IMG/VR virus record: IMGVR_UViG_3300025057_000059
Coordinates: 1 to 20,178 of that record
Direction: 5' to 3' (one strand)
Source: a virus
Length of the DNA: 20,178 nt
A program made the position numbers and the translations under genes. Shown here in pieces: positions 6,398 through 7,013 of the stretch (positions are counted from its first letter, which is position 1; the number at the start of each line of letters is the position of its first letter). A model generated the notes under the pieces. It made no database searches, was not told the DNA's origin, and worked only from the letters and a program-made list of their open reading frames with translations.

Positions 6398-7013
6398 AAG
6401 GTGGGAAGTGCGCTTAAAAAATGGCGGCCTCCCTTTTTGATTCAGGTCTTTCCTGCTTTGGGAGGCTGTTATGAAATCCGCAGGGTAAAGCCTGCAACGA
6501 ATTTGGGCTTGTGCGTCCCACCGCCCATCTTACGAGGTGGGGGTTGGTAAACCGGAAGGAGCCAGCGCGAGCCCAACATAATTAACGCGGGAAGCGGTGT
6601 TCATTCCTTTCCACCTGCTTTTTAGTGTGTGTTACAGGCACCCCGCGTTAAACTAATTTGGCCTTGCTGTTGAGATCGTAAGCTCAACGCATTCTCTTAA
6701 TTCACGCACAAAGACCTGGTTAGGCGTGAGCCTTGTGGCGGGAACGGGCGGCCAAAACACTTTAGGCGGCGGTGGTCACTATGTGGCGATGCCGAAAGGC
6801 GCTGCGAGCAATGCTGAGCGGTTCCGTCTAAACAGCTTGGTCTATTACCCTCGAAGCCCCTAGTGCCACTAGGGTTATCATTAGGGGATAGTGGGCCGCT
6901 CTCGTAACCTGAAACTAGGCTCAACCTAGTCAGTAGGGTTGCACCGACCAGCCAGAGGCCCAAGTCTGGCGCTTATTTAATGCCCTGCCCCTTTCGAGCG
7001 GCGGGGTTTTTTT
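6398..7013 (+). ncRNA. Large structured noncoding RNA (~615 nt), undescribed here
   Basis: The region between the promoter and a strong terminator has no plausible protein gene but many perfect helices. These are 6427-6433/6460-6466 (7 bp); 6480-6484/6491-6495; 6503-6514/6565-6576 (12 bp with two G-U pairs), which encloses hairpins 6517-6522/6536-6541 and 6542-6545/6550-6553; 6582-6591/6642-6651 (10 bp); 6669-6674/6683-6688; 6702-6707/6724-6729; 6741-6745/6821-6825 enclosing a GCC-GAAA-GGC hairpin at 6791-6800; 6816-6821/6896-6901, which would cross 6838-6842/6946-6950 (pseudoknot or alternative); 6904-6909/6937-6942 enclosing 6914-6919/6925-6930; and 6951-6956/6965-6970. Candidate roles: late leader/antitermination RNA, packaging RNA, or a GOLLD/ROOL-type ornate RNA. 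No tRNA, tmRNA or intron hallmark was found. Confidence 0.7.
6983..7013 (+). terminator. Intrinsic terminator before the late operon
   Basis: The stem CCCTGCC (6983-6989) pairs with GGCGGGG (7000-7006) over 7 bp with one G-U, has a 10-nt loop, and is followed by seven T (7007-7013). It ends the intergenic RNA 37 nt before the terminase small subunit start, so late transcription from the upstream promoter needs read-through or antitermination. Confidence 0.88.

Follow-up and report, generated by a model that had tools for sequence, protein, structure and literature searches.

A Candidate Multi-Domain Structured RNA with an Orphan DUF3800-VIII-Type Hairpin between the Early and Packaging Genes of a Phage

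Introduction

What does a phage keep in 729 nt that lie between its early genes and its packaging genes and hold no plus-strand open reading frame (ORF) of 60 aa or more? The question is raised by the window, the whole stretch of 20,178 nt analyzed here, which is part of a phage record. Its sequence is contained within IMG/VR contig 3300006734_000020 (L002, 37,694 nt), and since both are identical over all 20,178 nt, the contig provides no independent evidence.

The gap at positions 6321–7049 had been noticed in a first-pass annotation as a space of about 730 nt, and it is real. All ORFs of this size that overlap it are located on the minus strand, the longest one wholly inside comprising 88 aa. 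Upstream, early genes code for a RusA-type resolvase, a DUF1376 primosomal protein and a cytosine methylase (C5 type, 3360–4547). The last early gene is a plus-strand ORF of 227 aa (5637–6320) with weak similarity to DUF6456 and phrog_21451. It was not recognized as an antiterminator by profile search, and no homology to the matching Rhizobium phage gene was detected; it is possibly a late regulator. Downstream, the plus strand carries a terminase small subunit gene of the Sf6 type (TerS, phrog_1482, 7050–7544) and that of the large subunit (TerL, 7519–9024), which is 60–64% identical to annotated or IMG/VR TerL relatives. These are followed by an SU10-type portal and an SU10 major capsid protein. 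Further downstream, 17663–18970 encodes a virion protein with a C-terminal S74 chaperone of endosialidase domain.

Results and Discussion

The gap carries putative transcription signals near both ends. A sigma-70-like promoter sequence, TTGACT-16-CATAAT, is found on the plus strand at 6364–6391 and matches the consensus in 10 of 12 positions, with 0.5 such sites expected per kb. A strong intrinsic terminator follows at 6982–7013 (plus strand), consisting of a stem at 6982–7009 and a run of seven T. Both elements had been proposed before and are borne out here at the sequence level. Only 36 nt separate the end of the terminator from terS, and a search of this interval revealed no promoter-like site. 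Transcription of the late genes should therefore depend on polymerase passing the terminator of the leader, the arrangement known from lambda pR′-tR′. At the sequence level the window thus displays the layout of an antitermination leader: promoter, leader hairpin, terminator, and then late genes without a promoter in between.

The region from 6398 to 7013 (616 nt), a candidate structured transcript serving as noncoding RNA or late-operon leader, was folded and compared with shuffled sequences. The plus strand reaches −245 kcal mol−1 with a z-score of −4.33 (20 shuffles) and −4.43 in an independent run, compared to −1.69 for the reverse strand. As controls, 56 windows of the same length were folded on both strands (mean −0.69, standard deviation 1.19, minimum −3.68); the plus strand of 6398–7013 folds better than every one of them and shows the lowest value of all windows tested. 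The gap appears to encode a multi-domain structured RNA.

The structure exceeds chance but is distributed unevenly, being concentrated at 6421–6655, with moderately stable hairpins at 6836–7013. All elements described in the following lie on the plus strand. Domain 1 is a long hairpin with G–U pairs (6421–6472; z −4.9 for 6421–6475). Domain 2 consists of a 12 bp helix around two hairpins (6503–6576; z −3.75 for 6500–6580), domain 3 of a 10 bp helix around two stems (6582–6651; z −3.6 for 6580–6655). The two closing helices, 6503–6514/6565–6576 and 6582–6591/6642–6651, are perfect, exactly as first described. Between domains 1 and 2 a small hairpin, GCAGG-GTAAAG-CCTGC (6480–6495), appears in both the minimum free energy and the centroid structure, and a hairpin GTTGAG/CTCAAC (6668–6689) follows domain 3. 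The subsequent linker (6692–6836) is no more structured than chance (z +0.95). It contains the GAAA hairpin highlighted earlier (GCC-GAAA-GGC, 6791–6800), which is present but has a stem of only 3 bp in a region folding no better than its shuffles. Towards the 3′ end, the hairpin discussed below and the tail (6836–7013) are moderately stable (z −1.4 and −1.6), the tail including the hairpins CTAGG/CCTAG (6914–6930) and GCCAGA/TCTGGC (6951–6970). The first-pass proposal of a large structured RNA is therefore well supported: the statistics of folding and the difference between strands speak for it, as does a hairpin with covariation that an independent Rfam model detects. The structure is, however, spread unevenly.

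A position directly before terS would also suit a packaging site (cos or pac) acting at the DNA level, the inverted repeats of which merely resemble RNA stems. However, the reverse strand folds far worse (−1.7 vs. −4.4), and G–U pairs occur on one strand only. Together with the presence of promoter and terminator, and of the same hairpin far from terminase genes in other loci, this renders a packaging site very improbable.

To which class does the RNA belong? In an Rfam scan at gathering threshold, no family reaches its cut-off. The earlier statement that no known class is recognizable has to be corrected for the 3′ part, where positions 6836–6900 (plus strand) match DUF3800-VIII RNA (RF03075) over the full length of the model. 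The score of 35.9 bits stays below the gathering cut-off of 40.2 bits but is significant, with an E-value of 8e-5 over 4227 families and of 1.1e-6 in the phage record. Similar to the reference family, the module exhibits the conserved CGAAG, an apical hairpin with the loop sequence GTGCCAC (GTNCCAC in the family), an internal loop TTA..TAGG (TA..TAG in the family) and an outer helix. Eight of the nine apical-stem pairs are kept, and this stem covaries among relatives. In contrast to typical members, which are situated beyond a convergent DUF3800 gene, the sub-threshold hairpin of the window lies inside a large structured region before the terminase genes. It has no DUF3800 gene beside it: its neighbors are the early ORF and TerS/TerL, and no DUF3800 HMM match was obtained around it.

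Other candidates were rejected. A Pistol ribozyme match (18.2 bits against a cut-off of 34.5, E 0.7) is attributed to chance, as are matches to sX11, NsiR1 and anti-hemB, which fall on the terminator. Skipping-rope RNA (RF02924) was suspected in the window, but its model has no match in the phage record. GOLLD and ROOL, mentioned earlier for their similar size, are not matched by the Rfam models. A packaging role like that of the phi29 pRNA, which had been cited as a precedent, has no support, the pRNA model being unmatched and the packaging genes an ordinary, canonical pair of Sf6-type TerS and TerL.

The nucleotide search for homologues that had been recommended as a check yielded no relative of the whole RNA: blastn against phages, plasmids and 385 genomes (from the class of a Phenylobacterium genome) returned short chance or terminator matches only. 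Exact 18-mers of two modules upstream of the hairpin revealed no phage relative, one match (L385) being coding sequence. TerL relatives at 58–64% have no gap sequence in common with the window, and the hairpin occurs among them only in the Rhizobium phage group. As the searches turned up nothing homologous to the 5′ 440 nt, covariation support is confined to the DUF3800-VIII-type hairpin.

For the hairpin itself, viral and genome collections were scanned for the conserved letters, and most candidates were re-scored with the Rfam model. The RF03075 cut-off was passed in six of seven viral records, the seventh being the phage of the window, and in 12 of 22 genomes. Among 24 further viral records, 17 passed it and 20 gave E≤10; L334, L336, L346 and L354 were accepted on pattern and stem alone. 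A stricter hairpin pattern found nothing in the genome collections. When 22 phage hairpins other than that of the window were used to build a model, it had a single match in the window, at 6837–6903 with 33.6 bits. This value is not fully independent because later viral patterns were partly designed from the window hairpin; the Rfam score is independent.

In an alignment of 23 phage sequences, 91% of the apical-stem cells are paired. The covariation score of this inner stem amounts to 0.54, compared to 0.22 after shuffling and at most 0.16 when the stem is slid. With the two basal pairs excluded, 21 G–U cells face 2 A–C cells, which identifies the plus strand as the folding strand. Strand differences are seen in the surrounding gaps: in 12 of 12 hairpin-bearing gaps, RHph_Y25 counted, the plus strand has a z-score below zero and lower than that of the minus strand. 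After excision of the hairpin the flanks are still structured (mean z −2.7 on the plus and −2.1 on the minus strand), whereas the two strands cease to differ significantly (8 of 12). The strand signal of the gaps thus originates mostly from the hairpin, while the flanks keep their structure.

The hairpin occurs in two genomic contexts. At 13 loci, cellular and in some cases viral, a convergent DUF3800 gene ends 31–58 nt from it; Pfam confirmed DUF3800 in both neighbor genes tested. In the second context, comprising about 25 phage loci including the window, it has no DUF3800 neighbor. At 14 of these orphan loci (the window, L307, L309, L310, L311, L169, L316, L318, L319, L153, L334, L336, L354 and RHph_Y25) it either precedes the block of terminase and head genes or lies inside it, and the gaps that hold it are often large and structured. 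In all 14 it is co-directional with the terminase or head genes, an outcome of about 1 in 8000 for random orientation (two-sided). The terminases concerned belong to different PHROG families (phrog_9, 979, 15, 2/10250 and the SU10-like type). Other orphan hairpins are found elsewhere, namely before an endolysin gene, beside an integrase gene, among early genes or inside an ORF. In the literature searched, which did not extend to the first description of the motif, no paper reports DUF3800-VIII hairpins of this orphan kind ahead of terminase genes; a claim of novelty is therefore not firm.

Several of these loci show peculiarities of their own. In L308 (4640–5060) the hairpin and its flanks are present twice in tandem, the copies having diverged, within a 1.4 kb gap before a tyrosine integrase gene. 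In L315 an uninterrupted ORF encloses the hairpin (motif at reverse-strand position 8011), as might result if it had inserted as a mobile unit. The hairpin of L316 (motif at reverse-strand position 7971) is flanked by repeats TTGAGCTCAACACCTCACCCTGCCGA no more than 200 nt away, and its gap has a z-score of −7. Directly 5′ of the L319 hairpin, tRNA-like halves (ACCGTG ... GCAGGGTGCAAATCCCTGC CACGGT) with a long insertion are present at 370–700.

The pairing with convergent DUF3800 genes, the copies in L308 and L315 and the variation of the flanks from locus to locus would fit a mobile element, or the relic of a DUF3800 gene–hairpin pair, inserted into a spacer; the remainder would then be unrelated spacer with structure arising by chance or at the DNA level. 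We regard this as unlikely, given that all 14 hairpins point along the packaging or head genes, that a G–U-rich stem is maintained under covariation and that the flanking domains themselves fold significantly.

How such gaps change is seen in isolated phages. Judged by TerL, RHph_I1_23 (L377) is the nearest relative among isolated phages (60%). It has a gap at the same place, and so have five other Rhizobium phages; lengths are 279–692 nt in the five gaps that were extracted, I1_23 included (the others being L376, RHph_Y25; L379, N3_2; L380, Y1_10; and L381, N2). A hairpin module of 70 nt is common to the gaps at 96–99% identity while the surroundings differ, and repeated junctions such as AACGAGATCGG occur along with tRNA-like acceptor and T-arm pieces. 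This suggests a cassette exchange of RNA modules. The gap of RHph_Y25 contains a variant of the DUF3800-VIII hairpin at 40059–40126 (39.4 and 34.6 bits in two scorings) and no obvious terminator. As the other modules of the Rhizobium phage and L153 gaps are not found in the window, homology of its RNA to them is confined to the hairpin. By analogy to the related Rhizobium phages, the window locus probably exchanges modules as well.

A fast-changing cassette locus would also be in line with counter-defense. The hairpin might be an RNA decoy that mimics its DUF3800-linked counterpart and titrates a DUF3800 nuclease, possibly a defense factor, of the host or of a rival; solitary-repeat RNA anti-CRISPRs offer an analogy. 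In places, orphan hairpins resemble DUF3800-linked ones nearly letter for letter (L320 vs. L182), and for DUF3800 an RNase H fold and an association with noncoding RNAs and Cas12 loci were reported (PMC10910872). We consider a decoy improbable, somewhat more so than a mobile or relic hairpin.

A stronger competitor is a large phage noncoding RNA of the GOLLD/ROOL type that acts purely in trans as scaffold or decoy, the site before terS being an insertion hot spot unrelated to late control. The RNA shares with GOLLD and ROOL its size range, phage origin and multi-domain folding, and it has its own promoter and terminator. Some sister loci lie near tRNA genes or contain tRNA-like pieces. In L153 (3646–3908), skipping-rope RNA (50.5 bits) and a DUF3800-VIII hairpin (62.4 bits) are placed about 100 nt apart in one gap, followed by a tRNA-Gly, all ahead of TerS/TerL. 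Thus skipping-rope RNA, absent from the window, can accompany DUF3800-VIII upstream of terminase. The module exchange between Rhizobium phages points in the same direction. On the other hand, the RNA has no match to GOLLD or ROOL and no domain seen in common with them, it lies at the early/late junction, and a search of the window for tRNA and tmRNA genes gave none. Moreover, the RNA is linked to late transcription by the short distance of its terminator from terS (36 nt), in which no promoter was detected. A purely trans-acting RNA is less probable than the reading favored below and ranks second.

With moderate confidence, we favor a modular noncoding RNA that also leads the late operon and contains the hairpin as a candidate protein-binding module. 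Transcription would most likely start from the promoter at 6364–6391, with release at the terminator, giving an RNA that may be both a free noncoding RNA and the leader of the packaging/head operon. The orphan hairpin in its 3′ part would most likely be a protein-recognition module. Late genes would depend on read-through of the terminator, and the hairpin may recruit a factor permitting it.

This reading is preferred because of the terminator layout, its recurrence in L318, where the same arrangement stands ahead of a head maturation protease gene, the NusG-type genes in L309 and phiLM21, and the LoaP precedent. In L309 (7258–7881) a gene with a NusG domain (Pfam NusG, 43.5 bits) is immediately followed by a DUF3800-VIII hairpin and a terminator; in phiLM21 (L378) a NusG-like antiterminator gene precedes a comparable gap, there without the hairpin. 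Antitermination by LoaP, a NusG paralog, requires that a hairpin in the leader precede an intrinsic terminator (PMC12691694). Both LoaP-type leaders and the lambda pR′-6S RNA-tR′ unit resemble the window in that a late or long operon is directly preceded by a promoter, a hairpin leader and an intrinsic terminator; the NusG-type gene beside the hairpin in L309 is a further point of resemblance. Unlike in these systems, no Q, put or UNCG element was identified in the window and no antiterminator of its own was recognized. The RNA also exceeds the lambda leader about threefold in length. Its 615 nt are far more than an antitermination site needs, which argues against a leader function.

Conclusion

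The motif takes its name from an association with DUF3800 genes, yet it recurs without them, on one strand, ahead of the packaging or head genes of phages with unrelated terminases. Tentatively, these phages may have in common a type of structured RNA at the early/late junction that has escaped recognition, is modular and reassorts rapidly. The orphan DUF3800-VIII-type hairpin would anchor it as a common binding module, and the RNA would serve either to control late (packaging/head) expression or to counter a host system linked to DUF3800. The hairpin, at about 65 nt, offers a small, conserved and testable RNA target from which one may learn what large phage RNAs, and perhaps DUF3800 itself, do, with the isolated Rhizobium phages as a usable model.
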